Shown piece after piece: positions 2,278 to 15,214 of a stretch of 64,000 bases of DNA. A program made the position numbers and the translations under genes. Source of the stretch: an uncultured Alphaproteobacteria bacterium (GTDB taxonomy: Bacteria > Pseudomonadota > Alphaproteobacteria > HIMB59 > GCA-002718135). The notes under the pieces are model-generated. The model was not told where the DNA came from, searched no databases, and was given only the letters and a program-made list of their open reading frames with translations. Positions within the stretch are counted from its first letter, which is position 1; each line of letters starts with the position of its first letter. The DNA lies in contig CACIXR010000002.1 in the NCBI GenBank assembly GCA_902590695.1, positions 1-64,000 of the forward strand. The letters are read 5' to 3'.

Positions 2278-3195
2278 ATGAAAACACTAGAGAAACCAAA
2301 TGGAATTTGGGGAACTATTCTTTTGCCAATTAATAATAATCAAATTGACTGGATTGCCTTTGAAGAACAGATTCATATTTTATGTGACTCCAAAGTTTCT
2401 GGTATCTATACTAACGGTACCGCTGCAGAATGTCATAATCAAACAGAACAAGAATTTGATAAATTATCGGAAATAGTTTCAACAATTGCATTAAAAAAGA
2501 ATAAAAAATTTCAACTTGGTTTAAGTCATACTAATCCAAGAATTTGCCAAGAAAGAGCAAAGCGGATGGTAAGTTTAAAACCAAATGGATTTCAAATTAC
2601 CTTACCAGATTGGTGGCCTCCAACTTTTAATGAGTCAAAGAATTTTATTTTAGGTATGCAAGAGGTGGTTGAGGATATTTATATGATTTTATACAATCCT
2701 CCTCATGCAAAAGTCCTGCTTTCTCTTGAAGAGATTAGATTATTAAAACAATCTGTTCAAAATCTTGTAGGAATTAAATGTGCAGGGGGTGATGAGCAAT
2801 GGTACTCACAAAGAAGAGAATTATTAGATGATTTTTCGGTATTTGTGCCTGGACATACGGTTGTATATGGAAAACCTTTAGGAGCAAATGGATCTTATTC
2901 CAATGTTGCATGTTTAAGTCCAAATGGCGCTGTTAAAATTTGGGATTTAATCGAGAAAGATTATGAAAAAGCACAAGAACTAGAAGCAAAAGTCCTAAAC
3001 TTTATGAAACAATATATTTTACCTTTTGCTAATAAATTATCAAACACTGGTTTAGATAAATTACTTGCTTCTGTTGGCGGATGGGGACCAGTTTCCGAAA
3101 AAGTTCTCTGGCCTTATGATGGAGCAACTACAGAAGATGTAAAAAAAATAAAAATACATGCAAATAATGAATTAGAAGAAATACTAAATGTCTAA
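2278..3195 (+). CDS. Dihydrodipicolinate synthase / N-acetylneuraminate lyase family protein
   Basis: GIWGTILLPINNNQIDW, GIYTNGTAAECHNQ, VGIKCAGGDE are DapA-family TIM-barrel signatures. Confidence 0.8.
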   Translation: MKTLEKPNGIWGTILLPINNNQIDWIAFEEQIHILCDSKVSGIYTNGTAAECHNQTEQEFDKLSEIVSTIALKKNKKFQLGLSHTNPRICQERAKRMVSLKPNGFQITLPDWWPPTFNESKNFILGMQEVVEDIYMILYNPPHAKVLLSLEEIRLLKQSVQNLVGIKCAGGDEQWYSQRRELLDDFSVFVPGHTVVYGKPLGANGSYSNVACLSPNGAVKIWDLIEKDYEKAQELEAKVLNFMKQYILPFANKLSNTGLDKLLASVGGWGPVSEKVLWPYDGATTEDVKKIKIHANNELEEILNV

Positions 3196-4675
3196 AAATA
3201 TTTTTCTCTCAGGTATATATCATGAAACCCATACATTTTTAGGTGAACCAACTACTTTAAAAGATTTTATTATTTTTCATGATGAAGAAATAATTAATGA
3301 AAACACTGGGAATGGATCTCCAACAGATGGTTTTATAGAATATGCTTCTGGTCAAAATTGGAATATAATTCCAGGAATTCAAATGTCAGCCAGACCTTCA
3401 GGTACTGTTGATGAAGAATCAGAAAACTATTTTAAAAAAAATTTCTTTGAAAAATTAAAAGTTTCTTATCACAACATAGATGCTATTTTCTTAGTTTTAC
3501 ACGGAGCTATGGTAAGCACTAACCATGATGATTTTGAGGGAGATTTTCTCAGAGATATTCAAAGTTTTTTATCAAAAGAAAATATATCTATTCCTATTGT
3601 TGCTGTTTTAGATTTACACGCCAATGTTTCAGAAAATATGATTAAGTATAGTACATGTGTTTATGCATATAGAAAAAACCCTCACAGTGATTCTAGAGAA
3701 ACAGCAGTTAAAGCTGCATCAATTTTAAATGACCTTTTTCTAGATCCTAATGTAAAACAAGTACATCTGGATACAAAATATATTTTACCTCCAACAGGTG
3801 TCGGTACAGCAAATGATCCAATGAAAACAATTTTAGAAGAAGCATTAAAAATTGAGAAGAAAGATCCAGAGATCATATGCATTAATGTTATGGCAGGATA
3901 TTCATACGCCGATATTCCAGATTGTGGTTTTAGTATAAATTGTTGTACCAGAGGAAAAATTAGTGATGCAAAAAATTACCTAGATAAATTGGTCAATATA
4001 CTAGAAGCAAAAATTAAAGATGGTTATCCAAAAGAAAATTCTCTGGATGAAGCTCTAAATGTGATTGATAATATTACAGAAATTAAAAAACCTATTTTAC
4101 TAATTGAACCAGCTGATAATATTGGTGGAGGAACACCAGGAGATGCTACTGATTTATTAGATCGATTATTACAAACTAATCATAACGGGATCGTTGCTAT
4201 AATTAATGATCCTGAAGCTGCAGATGCTTGTCATAAAGCTCATATTAATAATGAAGTTCAGCTACATATAGGTGCAAAATTTGATGCATTTCATGGTAAA
4301 CCTATTTTTATTAAAGCAAATTTAGAAAGAATTTCTGATGGAAGATTTGAACTTGAAAATAAACAATCTCACTTAGCTTCAATGATGGGAACAAAAATTA
4401 ATATGGGCCCTTCAGCTGTATTAAAAAATGATCAATTAACCTTATTGTTAACATCAATTAAAACACCACCAATGGATTTAGGTCAACTAACTTCACAAGG
4501 TATTAATCCTAGAGATGCAAAATTAATAATAATTAAAGCAGCTGTATCTCATAAAGATGCTTATGATCCAATTGCATCTCAGAGTTTTTATATTGATAGC
4601 CAAGGTCTTTGTACAAGTAATTTAAAAAGATTGCCTTTTAAAAAAATTGGAAATAAAATTATATCTTTAGATTAG
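3188..4675 (+). CDS. M81 family metallopeptidase (MlrC-like)
   Basis: GIYHETHTF, LVLHGAMV, AVLDLHANVS, EPADNIGGGTPGD motifs; overlaps the upstream gene. Confidence 0.88.
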   Translation: MSKNIFLSGIYHETHTFLGEPTTLKDFIIFHDEEIINENTGNGSPTDGFIEYASGQNWNIIPGIQMSARPSGTVDEESENYFKKNFFEKLKVSYHNIDAIFLVLHGAMVSTNHDDFEGDFLRDIQSFLSKENISIPIVAVLDLHANVSENMIKYSTCVYAYRKNPHSDSRETAVKAASILNDLFLDPNVKQVHLDTKYILPPTGVGTANDPMKTILEEALKIEKKDPEIICINVMAGYSYADIPDCGFSINCCTRGKISDAKNYLDKLVNILEAKIKDGYPKENSLDEALNVIDNITEIKKPILLIEPADNIGGGTPGDATDLLDRLLQTNHNGIVAIINDPEAADACHKAHINNEVQLHIGAKFDAFHGKPIFIKANLERISDGRFELENKQSHLASMMGTKINMGPSAVLKNDQLTLLLTSIKTPPMDLGQLTSQGINPRDAKLIIIKAAVSHKDAYDPIASQSFYIDSQGLCTSNLKRLPFKKIGNKIISLD

Positions 4676-5991
4676 TTTAATCGTTTAAAACCGTTATGTG
4701 CAATAGGGCCCTCTAATAAATCCATAATATTTTTTCCATCCTCACACTCTTTTATCATTTGAAAAATAGGGCGTATATTTTCAATGTAACCATCAATGAT
4801 ATCTTTTGTGTGTGCAGTACAAACATAGACTGCAGTTGCAGCAAGATAACCTTTTTTAAGCATTTCTTGAGTAATAAATGTTTTATAGGCCAATGCATTT
4901 TCACTTTTAAATGAAAATGTTGTCAGTGCCGCTAATCCACTAATAGTAATTGGAAGATCAAATTCTTTAGACAACTTCATCCACTCACTATTTACGTATT
5001 CACCAATTTTTGTAATTTTTTCCCATGATTTTTCTTTATCCATAACTTTTAGTGTCGCAAGACCAGCACTAGATCCAATTCGTTCAGTCCAAAAGGTGCT
5101 ACTTATAAAAGATTTTTCTGCTGCTTGCATTACCTCTCTTTTACCAAGGACTGCAGTTACAGCATATCCATTTCCAAGAGCTTTTCCAAACATTGCAACG
5201 TCAGGCTCAACATCATAAAGCATATGCAAGCCACCATAATTTTTTCTAAATCCTGATGTACATTCATCAAATACTAAAACAATATTATTATCATTTGCTA
5301 ATTTTCTAACTCTTAGTAAAAAATTATTTTCTGGTTCTTTGTTTCGGTAAACTTCCATTTTGATAACGCCTATGTTTTTAGTTTTGACTAAGTTTTCTAG
5401 TTTATCAAAATTATTATATTCGAATGGATATACACTTCCTTTGAGATTTTGTGGTACACCATGAGGATCTAAACCTGGTAGAAGGTGACCATCTAACCCT
5501 TTTGAGTCAGATAAATTTGAAGCTAAGTACCAGTCGTGCCAGCCATGATATCCACAAAATGCTACATTATCTCTTCCAGATGCAGCTCTTGAAAGACGAA
5601 TAGCGACTGAATTAGCTTCACCTCCTGATCTTGCAAATCTTGCCATATCAGCCCATGGATGTAGTTCAACTAATCTTTCCGTGAGCTCAACTTCTTCCGG
5701 GGCATTTAGGGAAGACATATTTCCATTTCCGACTGTTTCTTTGACAGCTTCATCGACTTCTGGATGACTATAGCCAAGTGAATTAGTTCCTGGCATCATT
5801 AAGGTATCTATATATTTATTTCCATCGAGATCCCATACTTCACAACCTCTTGTTTTAGTAAAATAAGCAGGCCAATGTTCAGGTAAAAACATTTCAGGTC
5901 TTTTTGATAAAAGCATATTTCCACCAGCAACAATTTGCTTTGCTTTAGAATATAATTTTTGTCCTTTTCCCATTTTAATTAACCTATGCAA
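4672..5991 (-). CDS. Class III aminotransferase (glutamate-1-semialdehyde aminomutase-like)
   Basis: ARSGGEANSVAIRLSRAASGRDNVAFCGYHGWHDW, VFDECTSGFR, DVAMFGKALGNGY. Confidence 0.88.
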   Translation of the reverse strand: MHRLIKMGKGQKLYSKAKQIVAGGNMLLSKRPEMFLPEHWPAYFTKTRGCEVWDLDGNKYIDTLMMPGTNSLGYSHPEVDEAVKETVGNGNMSSLNAPEEVELTERLVELHPWADMARFARSGGEANSVAIRLSRAASGRDNVAFCGYHGWHDWYLASNLSDSKGLDGHLLPGLDPHGVPQNLKGSVYPFEYNNFDKLENLVKTKNIGVIKMEVYRNKEPENNFLLRVRKLANDNNIVLVFDECTSGFRKNYGGLHMLYDVEPDVAMFGKALGNGYAVTAVLGKREVMQAAEKSFISSTFWTERIGSSAGLATLKVMDKEKSWEKITKIGEYVNSEWMKLSKEFDLPITISGLAALTTFSFKSENALAYKTFITQEMLKKGYLAATAVYVCTAHTKDIIDGYIENIRPIFQMIKECEDGKNIMDLLEGPIAHNGFKRLN

Positions 5992-6023: not shown

Positions 6024-6905
6024 TTATAGCAAAACACCCATTTTTGATGCTTTTACTCCAAGAGATGACTTTACTACTTTTACGTGAAACAATTTAGGTT
6101 CTTTTTTCAAATTTTTTTTTACGAGCTCTAAATAACCTTGTGCCATTCCAATACTTCCACCAAGAATAATTATGTCTATATCAAATATAGCTTTCAAATT
6201 TGCACACAGTTCTGAGACAGATTTGGCAGATAGATCGATTATTTCTTTCGCCCATTTTTTATTTTGAAAACTAAGCTTAAAAATTTCTTTAGCACTAATA
6301 TTTTTATGACCTTTTTGTTTAGCAATTTTACTCATTGCTTTACCAGAAGCGATACTTTCAAAAGTTCCAATTCTACCACTCCCACATTTTGTTTTTGTTA
6401 ACGTTGAAGTTGTAAATCCCAAATGTCCTGCTAATCCATTTTCTGAGAGAAGAGGTTTATTGTTTAAAATTACACCAACTCCTATACCACTTGAAATTGT
6501 AATATATCCCACACGTTTGTATTTAAAACCTTTTCCATAATTTGCTTCTCCCAAAGCTGCAGCTGTTGCATCATTTATTATTGTAGAAGCTGTATTAAAT
6601 TTTTTTTCTATAAGTTTTTTAAGGGGTATTTTGAAATTTCCTAAATTTTCTTTATTTATTGGGTACCAATTTCCGTATTGGTCAACCCTTCCTGTAATAG
6701 CAATGCCTATTTTTTTAGATTTAGATATATTTAAGTTTTTAATATTTTTTTCAATTTGTTGAATGTAATTATTTGCTATTTTATGTATTGAAGTTGGCTC
6801 AGTAATAGTTTTTTTAAACTTTCCTTTAATTATTTGAGATACTGATATCTTCGTTGCTCCAAAATCAATTGCGATACCTGATTTGTTAAATATTTTTTTA
6901 TTCAT
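6024..6905 (-). CDS. ROK family sugar kinase (N-acetylmannosamine kinase-like)
   Basis: GIAIDFGATKISVSQI, NDATAAALGEANYGKG, GHLGFTTSTLTKTKCGSGRIGTFESIASG; adjacent to nanE. Confidence 0.82.
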   Translation of the reverse strand: MNKKIFNKSGIAIDFGATKISVSQIIKGKFKKTITEPTSIHKIANNYIQQIEKNIKNLNISKSKKIGIAITGRVDQYGNWYPINKENLGNFKIPLKKLIEKKFNTASTIINDATAAALGEANYGKGFKYKRVGYITISSGIGVGVILNNKPLLSENGLAGHLGFTTSTLTKTKCGSGRIGTFESIASGKAMSKIAKQKGHKNISAKEIFKLSFQNKKWAKEIIDLSAKSVSELCANLKAIFDIDIIILGGSIGMAQGYLELVKKNLKKEPKLFHVKVVKSSLGVKASKMGVLL

Positions 6906-6906
6906 T

Positions 6907-7581
6907 TTAATTTTTAATTTTTTTTACAAACCAACTCGTAATATTATCAATACGCGTAATAGCACTTCCAATTGTAACTGCATCTGCTCCTGCTTGTATA
7001 GCTTGCTTTGCAAGCTCCGGAGTGTTGTAACGACCTTCAGCCATTACAAAGCAATTAAGTTTTTTAAATTCTTTAATTAATTTTATATTTGGTTTATCCG
7101 TATCTTTTACTTGTTTACCAACATAGCCAGCAAGTGTTGTTCCAATAATATCTGCACCCTCTAAAATAGCTTTTTTAGCATCATCTAGATTTGAGCAATC
7201 TGCCATAGCTAAACGATTTGCTTTTTTAATTTTTAAAATAATTTCTTTTGTTGGAAAAGGCCTTTTCCTATTTGTGGCATCATACGCTATAATATCTGCA
7301 CCACTATTAATAATTTGATCGACATCCTTTAAGAGAGGCGTAATTCTAACTTTATAGTTATCTAAGTCATTTTTTATTATGCCAATGATTGGTAAAGAAA
7401 TATTTTTTTTGACTGCTCGTATATTTTTTTCTCCTTCAATTCGCACGCCACCACAACCTCCTATAATTGCAGCTTCTGCCATTGAAACAACAATAGACGT
7501 CTTGTCTTGAGGCCCACCCTCATTAGGCTGACATGATACAATGATTTTATTTTTTAATTTTTTTAAAATATTTTTTTTCAC
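6907..7581 (-). CDS. nanE: N-acetylmannosamine-6-phosphate 2-epimerase
   Basis: IVSCQPNEGGPQD, GGVRIEGEKNIRAV, LPIIGIIKNDLDNYKVRITP, ADIIAYDATNRKRP match the NanE pattern. Confidence 0.9.
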   Translation of the reverse strand: MKKNILKKLKNKIIVSCQPNEGGPQDKTSIVVSMAEAAIIGGCGGVRIEGEKNIRAVKKNISLPIIGIIKNDLDNYKVRITPLLKDVDQIINSGADIIAYDATNRKRPFPTKEIILKIKKANRLAMADCSNLDDAKKAILEGADIIGTTLAGYVGKQVKDTDKPNIKLIKEFKKLNCFVMAEGRYNTPELAKQAIQAGADAVTIGSAITRIDNITSWFVKKIKN

Positions 7582-7589
7582 AAAGTTAA

Positions 7590-8519
7590 TTATAATGCTT
7601 TTAAAAATTTTATTTCTGAAAGATCATTTTCCGACATTAATTTTTTTAAATCATCTTTTATTCCCTTTTCTATCTCTGTATTGACAATACTTGAAAAAGG
7701 CTTCCTTACATACCCTGAATCAATTCCCATCCAACTTAATCCCATTTTAATAAATGGATAACCTGATTTTTTTAAAGCATACAAAATGATCATATTTACT
7801 TTGTCTTGTAATTTTTTTGCCTCAACAACATTACCATTTTTCATATTTTGAAAAATTCCTACAAACATTTCTGGCATTAAATTATAAAACGATCCAATCA
7901 TACCATCAGCACCTGATATCAGACCAGAGATAGCCATTTCATCCATACCAGAATAAATTTTAAAATATGCTCCAATCTCCTTTTTTATTTTCTCAAAATT
8001 AAAATGAGTTGCTGCCGTATATTTAACTCCTTTAATATTATCTATAGCGGCCAATCTTTTTAACATATCAATGTCCAGCAAATTTGCGTGACTAATATTA
8101 TATATAATAATTGGCAAATGTGAGGATTGAGCTATGTCACTATAATAATTATAAATCTCTTCATTAGAAAAATTGTAATAAAAAGGTGGCAATGCTGATA
8201 ATGCGTCGACTCCAGCATGAGTGGCATATTTTGTTAGATCAGTTGTAATTTTAGTTCCAATAGATCCAACATGCGCAATAACAGGAACTCTGCCATTTAC
8301 TTCTTCAACAATAACATCAAGCACATCTTTTTTTTCTTCTGGTGACATTAAAAAAGTTTCACCTGTACTACCAGTTACGTACAAGCCATTAATATTTTCG
8401 GCTATTAAATGATTGATAATTTTTCTTAAACCTTCCTTGTTTATAGTTTCATCTTTATTAATCGATGTGATCATAGCAGGCATAACACCATTTAGATCTT
8501 TTGGATCATATTTAGACAT
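7590..8519 (-). CDS. N-acetylneuraminate lyase-like / DHDPS family protein
   Basis: DLNGVMPAMITSINKDETINKEGL, GLYVTGSTGETFLMSPEEKK, PIIIYNISHANLLDIDML, IKGVKYTAATHFN; next to nanE and a ROK kinase. Confidence 0.85.
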   Translation of the reverse strand: MSKYDPKDLNGVMPAMITSINKDETINKEGLRKIINHLIAENINGLYVTGSTGETFLMSPEEKKDVLDVIVEEVNGRVPVIAHVGSIGTKITTDLTKYATHAGVDALSALPPFYYNFSNEEIYNYYSDIAQSSHLPIIIYNISHANLLDIDMLKRLAAIDNIKGVKYTAATHFNFEKIKKEIGAYFKIYSGMDEMAISGLISGADGMIGSFYNLMPEMFVGIFQNMKNGNVVEAKKLQDKVNMIILYALKKSGYPFIKMGLSWMGIDSGYVRKPFSSIVNTEIEKGIKDDLKKLMSENDLSEIKFLKAL

Positions 8520-9527
8520 TTAGCTAATTTCGGGTAAATCAATTAAGTGGCAAGATGCATAGTGTTCATTACCATTTGTTGAATATTTTTTTAATGTTGG
8601 TACCTCAGTTTTACAAATGTCAGTTGCTTTAGGACACCGAGGATGAAAAGGACAGCCTTTAGGTGGATTAACTGGACTTGGTACATCTCCTTCCAAAACA
8701 ATTCTTTTCGTTTGTTTGTCAAGATCTGCAACTGGGATAGCTGAAATCAAAGCTTCAGAGTAGGGGTGAAGAGTATTATTATATAGATCTTCAGAATCAC
8801 AAAGTTCAACAATTCTCCCAAGATACATAACAGCAATTCGATCACATAGATATTCTGTTACACTCAAATCATGAGTAATGAAAAGGTAGGTTAGATTTTT
8901 TTCTTTCTTAAGTTGCATTAATAATTTTAGTACTTGTGCTTGAATTGATACATCAAGAGCACTAACCGCTTCATCACAAACTATAAGTTCCGGCTCAAGA
9001 CATAAAGCTCTGACAATACCAATTCTTTGTCTTTGTCCTCCTGAAAATTCGTGAGGATATCTATCCATATATTCTCTGCGCATATTTACTGCTTCTAGGA
9101 GATCACCAATAATTTTTCTTCTTTCCTCTTTTGATTTTATACCAAATTTTTTTAATGGATCTTGAAGCGAGCCAAAAATTGTAAACGAAGGATTAAGAGA
9201 GGAGTGCGGATCTTGAAAGACTATTTGTAACTTCTTTCGAAATGGATCCATATCTTTTTTTTCTAAAGATGTTAATTCTGTCTCATTATCATCTAGTGAA
9301 ATATATTTTACTTCTCCATCTGTAGGTTCTACCAATCTTAGGATGGCTTTACCAAGAGTTGTCTTTCCACAACCACTTTCTCCAGCTAGACCTAAAACTT
9401 CACCTCTAAAAATATCTAAATCCACACCATCAACAGCCAAAACATGTCCTACAACACGATTAAACACACCTGCTTGTACTGGAAAATGTACTTTTACACC
9501 GCGTAATTTAAGTATCTCTTTTTTCAT
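8520..9527 (-). CDS. Dipeptide/oligopeptide-type ABC transporter ATP-binding protein (DppF/OppF-like)
   Basis: Walker A GESGCGKTTLGKA, SGGQRQRIGIVRAL, C-terminal oligo_HPY region (GCPFHPRCPKATDIC). Confidence 0.93.
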   Translation of the reverse strand: MKKEILKLRGVKVHFPVQAGVFNRVVGHVLAVDGVDLDIFRGEVLGLAGESGCGKTTLGKAILRLVEPTDGEVKYISLDDNETELTSLEKKDMDPFRKKLQIVFQDPHSSLNPSFTIFGSLQDPLKKFGIKSKEERRKIIGDLLEAVNMRREYMDRYPHEFSGGQRQRIGIVRALCLEPELIVCDEAVSALDVSIQAQVLKLLMQLKKEKNLTYLFITHDLSVTEYLCDRIAVMYLGRIVELCDSEDLYNNTLHPYSEALISAIPVADLDKQTKRIVLEGDVPSPVNPPKGCPFHPRCPKATDICKTEVPTLKKYSTNGNEHYASCHLIDLPEIS

Positions 9528-10537
9528 TTATATTTCTCAAAAAATTGTTCGTACTTGTGACATCTTACTTGGTGAGTTTCATTTATTTGTGTGATTTCTG
9601 GCATCACATCACAACTTTCTGTTTGCCAATTGCACCTTGGAGCAAATTGACAACCAATAGGTCTATTATAGGGATCAGGCGTTGATCCTTTAATAGGATT
9701 AATATCTTGATTTTTCCCTCTTCCAAGTACAGGTACTGATTCTAAAAGAGCTTTAGTATATGGGTGTGTTGGTCGTCTTAAAACATCATCTGCTGTTCCA
9801 GCCTCAACAATGTTTCCCATATACATTACTGCAACATTATCAGCTAACTCTGCTACAACTCCCATATCATGCGTTATAAGTATAATAGCTGTATCATTTT
9901 CTTTTTTTAATTTATCCATTAGCTCAAATATTTGTGCTTGAATTGTAACATCTAGAGCTGTTGTTGGCTCATCCGCAATTAATATTTTCGGATTACAAGC
10001 CATGGCCATTGCTATCATTGCTCTTTGCCTCATCCCGCCAGAATAACTGTGAGGATATTCATCAACTCTTTTTTCTGGAAGTGGTATGCCCATGTCATTG
10101 AGAAGAGAAATACACTTTTCCCTTATTTCTTTTTTATTGAGATTAGTATGATACTTAAGATTTTCACTTATTTGAAATCCGACTGTGTACACAGGATTAA
10201 GTGCTGTCATTGGATCTTGGAATATCATTGCAATATCTGAGCCTCTAATCTCCCTCATTTCTTTTCCATTTTTTTCTAATTTTTCAATATTGATAATTTT
10301 ATCATCTTTTTGAAATTTAATTTCACCCTCTTCAATTCTTGATAGTGTTGGAAGTAATTGCATAATTGTAGCTGCGGTAACACTTTTACCACAACCACTT
10401 TCACCAACGATACAAAGTGTTTTACCTTTTTCAACATCAAAGGAAACTCCATTAACCGCTTTGTTGCATCGATTATTCGTATAAAAAAAAGTTTTAAGAT
10501 CTCTAACTGAAAGCGCTATATTATTTTTATCTTCCAT
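9524..10537 (-). CDS. Dipeptide/oligopeptide-type ABC transporter ATP-binding protein (DppD/OppD-like)
   Basis: GESGCGKSVTAATIM, YSGGMRQRAMIAMAMA, IGCQFAPRCNWQ. Confidence 0.93.
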   Translation of the reverse strand: MEDKNNIALSVRDLKTFFYTNNRCNKAVNGVSFDVEKGKTLCIVGESGCGKSVTAATIMQLLPTLSRIEEGEIKFQKDDKIINIEKLEKNGKEMREIRGSDIAMIFQDPMTALNPVYTVGFQISENLKYHTNLNKKEIREKCISLLNDMGIPLPEKRVDEYPHSYSGGMRQRAMIAMAMACNPKILIADEPTTALDVTIQAQIFELMDKLKKENDTAIILITHDMGVVAELADNVAVMYMGNIVEAGTADDVLRRPTHPYTKALLESVPVLGRGKNQDINPIKGSTPDPYNRPIGCQFAPRCNWQTESCDVMPEITQINETHQVRCHKYEQFFEKYK

Positions 10538-10539
10538 TA

Positions 10540-11454
10540 CTAACCTTGCTGTGATGGATCTGTTGAATCTCGTAGACCATCTCCTATAAAATTAACACAA
10601 AGAACAAAAACTGAAATAACAATTCCAACTGGTCCCCACATCCACCAATAGTTTTGTAAAATTAAAATATCTTGTGCAACATTTAAAATATTTCCCCATG
10701 TAGGAATATTTAACGGTACCCCTAAACCTAGAAAACTTAGTCCTGCTTCTGTTAAAATAAACATTGCCGTTGATAGAGTAATATTGACCATTATAGGACT
10801 TAATGCATTCGGCAACATATGTTTGTAGCATATCGTAAATGTAGATAAGCCAAAACTTCTTAGTGCTTGAACATATTCCTCCTCTCTTAAAGACAACATT
10901 CTAGCTCGAGCAAGCCTGTACATACCTCCCCAACCTGTAAGGATAAATATAGCCATTAAATTAAATAAACTTTGACCTGTGATGGATACGAGTAATAAAA
11001 CTAAAATAATTTGAGGGAAAGACATAAATATTTCAGAAATTCTAAGAGCAATAACATCAATCCAACCACCTTTATATCCTGCGTAACAACCAACCGCTAT
11101 TCCCACAACAGCTGATAGAATAGCACTTCCTAAACCGATAAATATTGAAACTCTGCCTCCAAATAAGACCCTTGTAAACACATCTCGTCCTGTACTATCT
11201 GTTCCAAACCAATGATCAAACGATGGCGGTTGTCTCATAGAACGTAAATCTACTCGCATTGGATCATATGGTGAGAGAAGAGGAGCAAAAATAGAAGCTA
11301 AAATAATTATTGTAAAAATGATTAAACCTAAAACCGCTAAACGGTTATTTAAAAATTTATTAACTATTCTACTTCTTTTTTTTGTAGAAAAAGTTTTTTC
11401 CTCTTCACGTTTTCTTATTTGATCAAATTTCTTATCTAGCGAAGACTTTGCCAT
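10540..11454 (-). CDS. ABC transporter permease (DppC/OppC-like)
   Basis: HWFGTDSTGRDVFTRVLFGGRVS, EAGLSFLGLGVPLNIPTWGNIL. Confidence 0.92.
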   Translation of the reverse strand: MAKSSLDKKFDQIRKREEEKTFSTKKRSRIVNKFLNNRLAVLGLIIFTIIILASIFAPLLSPYDPMRVDLRSMRQPPSFDHWFGTDSTGRDVFTRVLFGGRVSIFIGLGSAILSAVVGIAVGCYAGYKGGWIDVIALRISEIFMSFPQIILVLLLVSITGQSLFNLMAIFILTGWGGMYRLARARMLSLREEEYVQALRSFGLSTFTICYKHMLPNALSPIMVNITLSTAMFILTEAGLSFLGLGVPLNIPTWGNILNVAQDILILQNYWWMWGPVGIVISVFVLCVNFIGDGLRDSTDPSQQG

Positions 11455-12419
11455 TATTCTTTTCCTAACCTAACTCTTGGGTCAATTAACGCTGTTAAAA
11501 CATCTATTATTAAACTTGCTGTAAGAACAACAAAAACATACATTAGTGAAATTGTCATAACTAAAGGATAATCAGAAGCGCGCACAGAGCGAATGAACAT
11601 ACTCCCAATTCCTGGCCATTGGTAAACTTGTTCGATAATAGTTGATCCCCCTATAAGTAAAGGTAGACGAAAACCAATTAGTACAACAACTGGTGTTAGG
11701 GCTACTCTAAATCCGTGTAATATATTTACTCTCCACTCAGGCATTCCTTTTGATCGAGCAGTAGTAATAAATTCTCGTGCTAAAACATCTAACATTGATG
11801 AACGTGCATAACGCATAGCTCCTGCAGTCATCATTAATGCCAATACTAATGAGGGGAGAACAATATTTGGTATACGATCCCAAAGTGTTTCATAATGAGG
11901 TAGTAATCTACCTCCAACGGGAAGCCACTTTAATTCGATAGCAAATAAAAGAATAGCTACAAGTCCAAAAAAAAATTCAGGTATAGAAACTCCAGCCATT
12001 CCAGCAACCGTAAGAGAATTATCAGTACCGGAACCTCTTTTAAGAGCACTAATAACTCCTAAAGAACATCCTAAAATTGTTGAGAAAAATAATGCTACCA
12101 TAGATAGCTCTAAAGTTGCAGGAACTGTTTTTACCATTATTTCAGAAATAGCAACACCACCTGCCATGGAATAACCCATGTCTCCTTGAACCATGCTAGT
12201 TAACCAAATCCAGTATCGTGTAAGGAAACTTTGATTTAGCCCATACGCTTCACGCATTGCATCAAGTTGTTCCGCAGTAATTGTTGATGCGAGTTCAGGA
12301 CTGATCATATGTGAAACAGCATCGCCTGGTGATAATTCTAATCCTGAATAAACAAGAAAACTTATGACAAGCAACATCGGAAAGAAAATAAATAAACGTT
12401 GAATAATATAAGTGGTCAC
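11454..12419 (-). CDS. ABC transporter permease (DppB/OppB-like)
   Basis: MTTYIIQRLFIFFPMLLVISFLVY, ARSKGMPEWRV, PGIGSMFIRSVRASDYPLVM. Confidence 0.92.
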   Translation of the reverse strand: MTTYIIQRLFIFFPMLLVISFLVYSGLELSPGDAVSHMISPELASTITAEQLDAMREAYGLNQSFLTRYWIWLTSMVQGDMGYSMAGGVAISEIMVKTVPATLELSMVALFFSTILGCSLGVISALKRGSGTDNSLTVAGMAGVSIPEFFFGLVAILLFAIELKWLPVGGRLLPHYETLWDRIPNIVLPSLVLALMMTAGAMRYARSSMLDVLAREFITTARSKGMPEWRVNILHGFRVALTPVVVLIGFRLPLLIGGSTIIEQVYQWPGIGSMFIRSVRASDYPLVMTISLMYVFVVLTASLIIDVLTALIDPRVRLGKE

Positions 12420-12439: not shown

Positions 12440-12473
12440 AAAAAAAGAAAGCTGAGGCGTATGCCTCAGCTTT
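12440..12473 (-). terminator. Rho-independent-like hairpin between the substrate-binding protein gene and the permease genes
   Basis: Perfect 11-bp stem AAAGCTGAGGC-N4-GCCTCAGCTTT (12448-12473), followed on the minus strand by TTTCTTTTTTT. Confidence 0.85.
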
Positions 12474-12487
12474 AATGATTAAATTAA

Positions 12488-14095
12488 CTATGGTTTTGGA
12501 TACTGCATAATCCACATCATACGAGTATAAGGGATATCAACAGCTTTAGTTCCCATGTTGTCCATAGCATCTAGTGCAGCAACATCGGCTACGTTTTTAG
12601 TAAATCCGTAGTCCATTTTTCCTGCAGCAGCATTCTTAATTAAGTTACCATCACCATCATAACTTGGGTAAGCAATGATATCAAAACCAGCTTTACCGCC
12701 ATGATAGCCGTCAAAAGGTTCGAACTTCGCAAAGTCGTTCATTTTAACTTCAGTAATTTTGAATGCTCCAGATCCTATTGGCTTTTGCCAGAAATCACTT
12801 TGTTGGAATTTCAAAGGATCAACATCACCTAATAAGTGCTTAGGTAAAATAGCAAATTGAGTGAACGTAGTTAAGATGTTAGGATCAATTTTTGTTAATT
12901 CTAACGTAATAACTCTGTCTGCAATATTGTATTTAATACCTGCAACATCATCAGTTGAGCCGTCTTTAAATGCATCAGCACCTTTGATTGATCCAACTGT
13001 GTTTCCAATTAGAGCGTGCATTTGAGGTGCTTTCATAGCAGTACGAATACTCCATGCTACATCCTCAACAGTTACATCATTTCCATCATGGAAAGTAAGA
13101 CCATCTTTTAGTTTAAATGTTAAACTTAAACCATCAGCAGCTAGCTCATAACTTTCACAAGCTGAACATCCAACTGGTTGTAACGCACCATCAGCAACTA
13201 ATAGTCTATCGAATACAACTTTGTTGTGTATCCATAAACCAAGATTGTACCAAGGCTGTTCAAAGAATTCAACTGGACCAGTGTTAGTTTGTAATGTACC
13301 ACCACTTACGTTCCAATCAGTAATACCCCAGTTATAGTTATACTGAGCGTTACCATATGCTCCACCATTTCTATCAACTTTATTACTCTCATAGATGAAT
13401 AATTTTTGATAGTATAATGGACAAATGTTAACTTTTTCCATTTGATATTCTTGTATTTCAAAGAAAGCAGGTTTTAGAACTTCTGGATCTGCACTTGAAT
13501 TGATTTTTTCAATTAGTGCATCCATTTTTGGATCACCAGGAGTTTGTGGGTTTAGACCTGTTTTAAAAGTATTGTAATACTCTTGCATTGCAATTGCTGC
13601 ACGAGCACCATAACCTAAGTCATAGTCAACAGCAGCTGGTCCGTTCACACCATCATCAGGAACTGAATTAAGTTGTGCACCAACATCACCTTGTAATAGA
13701 CGGTAAGTCATTTTAACACCAACGTCAGCAAAGTATGCTTGAATTGCTGCCATGAAGTCAGCTGTTAGCTGATCTCCATAATAGAATACCATATCAAGTT
13801 CTCTATTAGAGTCCCAATTTGCTTCTGCCAACAGTTGACGAGCTTTTTCAGGATTGTAACTGTAATCAGGTAGATTTGGAGACTTCATTGGACCGTTTGG
13901 TAATAAACTATCCGCCATTATGATTTGATCTTCAAATAATGTTTCACCGATTGTTTTCATGTCAATAGCCATACACAAAGCTTGTCTAACACGAGGATCG
14001 GATAATTGGTTACTGTTTGTAGGTTGAGCTGAAGCTGATGAAATGAACATCAGATGAGCTAACACTGCAACTATAACCACATATAGTTTTTTCAT
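12488..14095 (-). CDS. ABC transporter substrate-binding protein, SBP_bac_5 family, apparently circularly permuted
   Basis: Start at ATG 14095 with AGGAGG upstream; signal peptide MKKLYVVIVAVLAHLMFISSASAQ. The canonical C-half (DPRVRQALCMAIDMKTI...YNWGITDWN) then precedes the canonical N-half (FFEQPWYNLGLWIHNKVVFDRLLVADG...LTFHDGNDVTVEDVAWSI...RMMWIMQYPKP). The ORF track start at 14134 is longer than needed. Confidence 0.88.
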   Translation of the reverse strand: MKKLYVVIVAVLAHLMFISSASAQPTNSNQLSDPRVRQALCMAIDMKTIGETLFEDQIIMADSLLPNGPMKSPNLPDYSYNPEKARQLLAEANWDSNRELDMVFYYGDQLTADFMAAIQAYFADVGVKMTYRLLQGDVGAQLNSVPDDGVNGPAAVDYDLGYGARAAIAMQEYYNTFKTGLNPQTPGDPKMDALIEKINSSADPEVLKPAFFEIQEYQMEKVNICPLYYQKLFIYESNKVDRNGGAYGNAQYNYNWGITDWNVSGGTLQTNTGPVEFFEQPWYNLGLWIHNKVVFDRLLVADGALQPVGCSACESYELAADGLSLTFKLKDGLTFHDGNDVTVEDVAWSIRTAMKAPQMHALIGNTVGSIKGADAFKDGSTDDVAGIKYNIADRVITLELTKIDPNILTTFTQFAILPKHLLGDVDPLKFQQSDFWQKPIGSGAFKITEVKMNDFAKFEPFDGYHGGKAGFDIIAYPSYDGDGNLIKNAAAGKMDYGFTKNVADVAALDAMDNMGTKAVDIPYTRMMWIMQYPKP

Positions 14096-14227
14096 ATTTC
14101 CTCCTATTGAGTAAAATACGCTACTAGCTAGCATATAAGATGCATATAATCATAATGTAGAGATATAGACAAGGTATAATATTTCATTAACGCAAGATAA
14201 CTAAGTTATTGAAATTATCGATAAAAA

Positions 14228-15214
14228 TTAGTTTTTAATACTAACTCTTTTAAGCATTTTTTCATGCATTTCTTTAGATCCATCATGATAAGTTCCAAAC
14301 CATTGATCAAAAGGAATCATGAGATTTCCGTAATTTACCTCAAAATATTTATGATGAAGATAATGATTATAATTACTGAGATCTATTGCTCTCTTATCAT
14401 TGATCATCATTTGCTTAAAACCTATATGACCATTTGCTGATCCTAAGCCCGCATGAAATAAATGATAAGTAGCATGTAGTGGATGTGAGAGAATAACCCA
14501 ATGAATGATAACACCAGAAAAATATAATAAATGTTCAATAGGATGCATTGATAGGCTAGACCAAGGTCCAGGATTAACATTTCGATGATGAACAGAATGA
14601 GCAATTTTGTACATAAATTTAAAATGCAAGAATCGATGAATTAAATAAAAGTGAGCATCTCTAAATGCTGGAATTAGTAAAAGAATAATAAAGAAATAAA
14701 TTGGTGCTTCACTAAATTTAATAAAAGGTACCAAACCAGAAGCATAAAACCAAAAAGATAAAACCTCGTAAGCTGTCCAAATAGGAACACCCCAAAATAA
14801 ACTCCAAAATAAATTATCAAATATTTGTTTATTAAATGTAAATATCTTTTGAATTTTTTCTGGCCAGTTTGGATTAAATTTAAATTTTATTCCTTGAGAT
14901 TTTTTTACATAAAGTGGAATATGAATTAAACTAAAAAAAATTGTACCTATTACATAGTTCCTAATTAAGATTTCAGATATCCAACCTGGCGAAAGATTTT
15001 TCATTTCGGAAAGTGCAGGTGTAAAAAAATAGTAAGCGATAAACGCAACAGCTAAGTAAACAAGATTCCAAGAAAAAATATATGAAAAGATAAACCAATC
15101 TAAAATTTTTCTTAAATTAAAAGGAAGTATCCAAATTGGATTTTTATCAGCCGCTTCTTTAGGAACGAAATGACCTCTTTTATCTCTATATCCAAAATTT
15201 TCTTCTTTGATCAT
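14228..15214 (-). CDS. Sterol desaturase / fatty acid hydroxylase family membrane protein
   Basis: Histidine clusters HFYLIHRFLHF, HSVHHRNVNPGPW, HYLHHKYFEVNYG. Confidence 0.87.
   Translation of the reverse strand: MIKEENFGYRDKRGHFVPKEAADKNPIWILPFNLRKILDWFIFSYIFSWNLVYLAVAFIAYYFFTPALSEMKNLSPGWISEILIRNYVIGTIFFSLIHIPLYVKKSQGIKFKFNPNWPEKIQKIFTFNKQIFDNLFWSLFWGVPIWTAYEVLSFWFYASGLVPFIKFSEAPIYFFIILLLIPAFRDAHFYLIHRFLHFKFMYKIAHSVHHRNVNPGPWSSLSMHPIEHLLYFSGVIIHWVILSHPLHATYHLFHAGLGSANGHIGFKQMMINDKRAIDLSNYNHYLHHKYFEVNYGNLMIPFDQWFGTYHDGSKEMHEKMLKRVSIKN

Follow-up and report, generated by a model that had tools for sequence, protein, structure and literature searches.

A natural circular permutant of a cluster C (SBP_bac_5) binding protein in SAR11, with its new termini predicted at the hinge

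Introduction

Circularly permuted binding proteins have mostly been known as products of engineering or from events inferred in the distant past. A natural case is described in cluster B of the ABC-importer binding proteins, where TpMglB-2 (Tp0684) of Treponema pallidum is a permutant that has been named type Ic, or cluster Bc (PMC4990184). The solved cluster C proteins AppA (1xoc), DppA (1dpp) and AccA (4ra1) have the canonical order and belong to systems with a DppBCDF-type permease in the operon. Lobe 1 of AccA consists of residues 29-280 and 494-521 and lobe 2 of residues 285-489, and two short hinge segments join them (PMC4526662). The SatABCD system of Haemophilus ducreyi has an SBP_bac_5-type receptor for sialic acid, SatA (5z99, 5za4, 5yyb; PMC11364026).

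We describe here a gene found in the window, that is, the whole stretch of 64,000 nucleotides of DNA that was analysed. Its product, called cpSBP, is homologous in both halves and over nearly its full length to AppA, DppA and AccA, and its operon likewise encodes a DppBCDF-type permease, but the halves are swapped, the chain starts ahead of the RVRQA helix, and even the nearest canonical homologues found share at most 33% identity with it. SatA is matched by cpSBP both by sequence and by structural model; it differs in its canonical order, the sequence similarity is weak and it is not the closest solved relative. Like TpMglB-2, the protein is an ABC-importer receptor that is circularly permuted in nature and throughout a clade, but TpMglB-2 has the cluster B sugar-binding fold and another ligand (PMC4990184). 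The cluster B (type I) fold is not that of cpSBP, whose sole Pfam family is PF00496 and whose structural matches are to cluster C. The gene belongs to the SAR11 bacteria. SAR11 is among the most abundant bacterial groups of the ocean.

Results

The two halves of cpSBP are encoded in swapped order

The reading frame lies on the minus strand, begins with the ATG at 14095, ends with the stop codon at 12490-12488 and encodes 535 amino acids plus the stop without interruption. Translation might instead begin at an in-frame ATG at 14134, but AGGAGG directly precedes 14095. The first-pass annotation had placed a start, a ribosome-binding site and a signal peptide here, and all three are present, the signal peptide being recognised by eye.

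12488..14095, minus strand: cpSBP, circularly permuted SBP_bac_5 solute-binding protein (open reading frame, swapped PF00496 order, rotation scan)
14100..14105, minus strand: AGGAGG ribosome-binding site of cpSBP (sequence, by eye)
14024..14095, minus strand: signal peptide, residues 1-24, cleavage SASA/Q or SAQ/P (by eye; kept in orthologues)
13310..14023, minus strand: segment B, residues 25-262, the canonical C-terminal half (HMM 280-499)
12491..13309, minus strand: segment A, residues 263-535, the canonical N-terminal half or lobe 1 (HMM 52-274; long C-terminal strand in the model)

PF00496 matches cpSBP far above its gathering score (171.2 bits vs 32.4). It does so in two stretches of a single 553-codon open frame, profile positions 209-326 at 13688-14017 and positions 7-206 at 12509-13159, both on the minus strand; the C-terminal part of the profile comes ahead of the N-terminal part, as the first-pass annotation had expected, and the halves are not in canonical order. 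Six other PF00496 genes were found in the same genome, and each is matched in one stretch in the normal order. An HMM built from 29 canonical-order homologues gave the same picture, with HMM positions 280-499 matched first (112.5 bits) and positions 52-274 second (113.9 bits). When all 512 circular rotations of the mature protein were scored against it, the best single-domain score rose from 114 bits as encoded to 238 bits at rotations 239-255, an optimum that coincides with the joint already proposed. Re-ordering also turned the PF00496 match into one stretch of 182.6 bits, and the PDB search, too, into single continuous matches. The joint QYPKP/TNSNQLSDPRVRQAL aligns with canonical homologues and no segment is missing. 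The claims of a circular permutation, a full family length and an uninterrupted frame are all supported.

The cut is predicted to fall at the hinge

Canonical homologues run through the joint as ...YLGFN..SP..D.RVRQA..., and the re-ordered protein aligns there with WIMQYPKPTNSNQLSDPRVRQA. In DppA numbering the cut lies at about residues 270-275, between a strand and the RVRQA helix. Segment A ends in the hinge strand ...TRMMWIMQYPKP, while segment B corresponds to lobe 2 together with the lobe 1 C-terminal tail and has 238 residues, against 237 for AccA 285-521 (lobe limits from PMC4526662). From alignment and segment length alone, without structural coordinates, the new termini are inferred to lie at the first crossover. 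The earlier suggestion that they lie at the interlobe crossover is compatible with the published AccA lobe boundaries and with our alignments, and we infer from these that the cut separates the first hinge strand from the RVRQA helix. Of the two connections that join the lobes covalently, one should therefore be open.

An AlphaFold2 model was made from 67 sequences, the canonical relatives being split into separate halves. Its confidence is moderate (pLDDT 72.4, pTM 0.65) and is low at the fusion of segments B and A, mature residues 219-268. It has long strands in the places predicted for the hinge strands, mature residues 201-214 and 491-506. The top 50 Foldseek matches of this model are cluster C-type proteins, SatA among them, over roughly half of the chain (207-273 columns), as a sequential aligner should return for a permutant. 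A native-like fold is inferred.

The architecture that we propose is as follows. The chain would be cut just after the first hinge strand leading from lobe 1 to lobe 2, and the old N- and C-termini, both in lobe 1, would be fused without an added linker. The order along the chain would then be lobe 2, the second hinge strand, lobe 1 and finally the first hinge strand, and the lobes would be linked covalently by one crossover instead of two. The permutation in TpMglB-2 adds a fourth hinge crossover; that in cpSBP should remove one of two.

Two cysteines set the permuted proteins apart. No permuted sequence that extends over these positions lacks them, and none of the aligned canonical halves has them:

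13973..13975, minus strand: Cys41 codon (invariant among the permuted proteins; missing from the canonical homologues aligned)
13421..13423, minus strand: Cys225 codon (with the same distribution)

Both residues belong to lobe 2, close to the cut and to the second hinge strand, and might form a disulfide.

The permuted gene is clade-wide and under purifying selection

The first-pass annotation had left it to an ortholog search whether the order occurs in a single genome or in a clade. It is a clade: 26 of the 110 genomes of the family carry cpSBP in the same order, 24 of them in full length and two as partial matches near a contig end. Among species genomes there are 28 loci with close relatives; most are titled as AG-... 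isolates, which by naming convention we take to be single-cell assemblies, and the others are MAGs. We collected 25 distinct full-length reading frames, 79-100% identical, from independent single-cell and metagenome assemblies. All share both junctions (SAQ/PTNSNQ and DWN/VSGG or similar) and end in YPKP before the stop. Overall dN/dS was 0.044-0.146, which denotes purifying selection, the values for the most distant pairs being rough because dS is high there. Low dN/dS, conserved junctions and a conserved operon bear out the proposal that the gene is functional, as far as genomic signs can do so. No relative was found among the viral contigs searched. A contig of a MAG titled Gammaproteobacteria breaks off in a cpSBP after its first 54 residues (L066:5001-5162); the genes beside this fragment are unlike the SAR11 neighbourhood, and the contig may be chimeric, placed in the wrong bin or the result of a transfer.

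cpSBP heads an operon with permease, ATPase and probable sialic-acid genes

The genes and the structural element downstream of cpSBP are these:

12448..12473, minus strand: hairpin between the cpSBP stop and dppB (-19.8 kcal/mol, z -7)
11454..12419, minus strand: DppB/OppB-type permease (NCBIfam Opp2B/Opp4B; syntenic)
10540..11454, minus strand: DppC/OppC-type permease (NCBIfam Opp4C)
9524..10537, minus strand: DppD-type ATPase
8520..9527, minus strand: DppF-type ATPase
7590..8519, minus strand: NanA, N-acetylneuraminate lyase (above the NCBIfam PRK04147 cut-off; best PDB matches are NanA enzymes)
6907..7581, minus strand: NanE, N-acetylmannosamine-6-phosphate epimerase (above the NCBIfam cut-off; Pfam PF04131)
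6024..6905, minus strand: NanK-like ROK kinase (best NCBIfam match N-acetylmannosamine kinase, below cut-off; PF00480)
4672..5991, minus strand: class-III aminotransferase (HemL-like), the last gene of the conserved cluster (PF00202)

This gene order is conserved wherever contigs reach. The stem of the hairpin is kept by compensating changes in divergent relatives, and it is probably an internal terminator or attenuator. The terminator announced after cpSBP is this conserved hairpin, which lies inside the operon, ahead of dppB. Internal terminators are known to determine how much binding protein is made relative to permease (PMC9045158).

The protein has what a transport receptor of this type should have, a secretion signal (by eye) and adjacent, co-inherited dppBCDF genes for an Opp/Dpp-type permease and its ATPases. 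The family genomes with the DppC permease are precisely the 26 that carry cpSBP, and none of the 110 has a close DppC without the permuted protein. With NanA, NanE and a NanK-like kinase encoded downstream, the arrangement is also that of an SBP_bac_5-type receptor accompanied by sialic-acid catabolic genes, of the SatABCD kind, and the likely substrate is therefore a sialic acid.

Several features of the surroundings may be recorded. The aminotransferase gene remains the neighbour of nanA in lineages without nanE and nanK at that place as well. Where carriers have sufficient flanking sequence, the operon is immediately preceded by a gene of the fatty acid hydroxylase family (14228-15214), homologues of which, 42-48% identical, are present in genomes without the operon. 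On its other side the operon is adjoined by two plus-strand genes, a second DHDPS-family gene (2278-3195) and an M81/MlrC-like gene (3188-4675), which by eye are syntenic in the divergent locus L120 too.

No canonical-order sister was found

A canonical-order sister of cpSBP was absent from drawn samples of about 290 genomes of the class and about 400 of the phylum and from plasmids, and from one scan for close relatives among 85,462 species genomes; the closest canonical homologues that turned up share no more than 33% identity with cpSBP. The second NanE loci of three genomes (G382, G006, G389) were considered as places where a canonical SatA might be encoded and rejected, as they are amino-sugar islands with another ABC family. 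Read by eye, these SAR11 islands (L128, L129, L131) contain a second NanE/NanK pair, a SIS-domain isomerase, another ABC importer and an N-acetylglucosamine-6-phosphate deacetylase-like gene, a content that points to amino-sugar uptake.

Discussion

Our reading is that cpSBP is a working, natural permuted cluster C protein of SAR11 and that it most likely serves as receptor for a DppBCDF-type importer whose ligand is N-acetylneuraminate or a closely related sialic acid. We give this a probability of roughly 0.85, with fold, binding and transport inferred. The imported sialic acid would then be degraded by NanA, NanK and NanE. No earlier report of a permuted SBP_bac_5 or cluster C protein was found in the literature searched, in which subscription journals were thinly covered. 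Natural permutation was already known in cluster B; what appears to be new, judged from sequence, is a cluster C binding protein of an ABC system that is circularly permuted by nature and cut at the hinge.

That the swapped order is an artefact of assembly or amplification might be thought of because some of the records are draft single-cell or metagenome assemblies. We consider the chance of this to be vanishingly small: the 25 distinct full-length frames come from many assemblies with different contig ends, and mis-assembly is ruled out because independent assemblies share both junctions. How the order arose is less clear. We infer a tandem duplication followed by trimming of the outer halves, but no intermediate was found, and gene fission followed by fusion, or transposition of a block, stays in play as the less favoured route since neither a duplicated intermediate nor a canonical sister has come to light. 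Nothing decisive speaks against fission or transposition; the retained signal peptide and the seamless joints fit duplication and trimming without proving it.

The ligand is the other point on which readings may differ. The permuted protein could serve a peptide or another 2-keto-3-deoxy acid cleaved by a NanA-like enzyme, the sialic acid being only a guess from the neighbours: the permease belongs to oligopeptide-type families, the closest solved relatives are peptide-binding proteins, and transfer of a ligand by homology is weak because canonical homologues are at most 33% identical. NanE and NanK are, moreover, missing between NanA and the aminotransferase in the divergent carriers L120, L122 and L123, so the ligand could differ among lineages; NanE homologues are encoded elsewhere in the genomes of divergent carriers without the operon copies (G006, G036, G389). 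We nevertheless hold another ligand to be less likely, given that NanA scores above a curated cut-off, that NanE is present in 24 of 26 carriers versus 3 of 84 other genomes (Fisher p 8e-19, uncorrected for phylogeny and with incomplete genomes) and that SatA demonstrates the ability of SBP_bac_5 proteins to bind sialic acid (PMC11364026). The predicted loss of a covalent crossover could also be taken to mean that cpSBP has been recruited as a sensor or scaffold, the permutation being tolerated since hinge closure no longer matters. This is very improbable in view of the strict linkage to its own permease genes, of purifying selection on both halves and of the fact that the permuted TpMglB-2 still changes conformation upon ligand binding (PMC4990184).

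If cpSBP is a sialic-acid receptor with a single crossover, a disulfide between Cys41 and Cys225 might replace the lost restraint and tune opening for scarce sialic acids in this SAR11 clade. This is speculation, and we would not expect it to prove right in this form.

The titles and abstracts searched held nothing specific on sialic-acid uptake by SAR11, to which the cpSBP operon points. A living clade possesses a cluster C receptor of swapped order that works by all genomic signs and has its new ends, as predicted, at the hinge. Such a clade can serve as a natural experiment on whether the venus-flytrap closure of these proteins requires two hinge strands.
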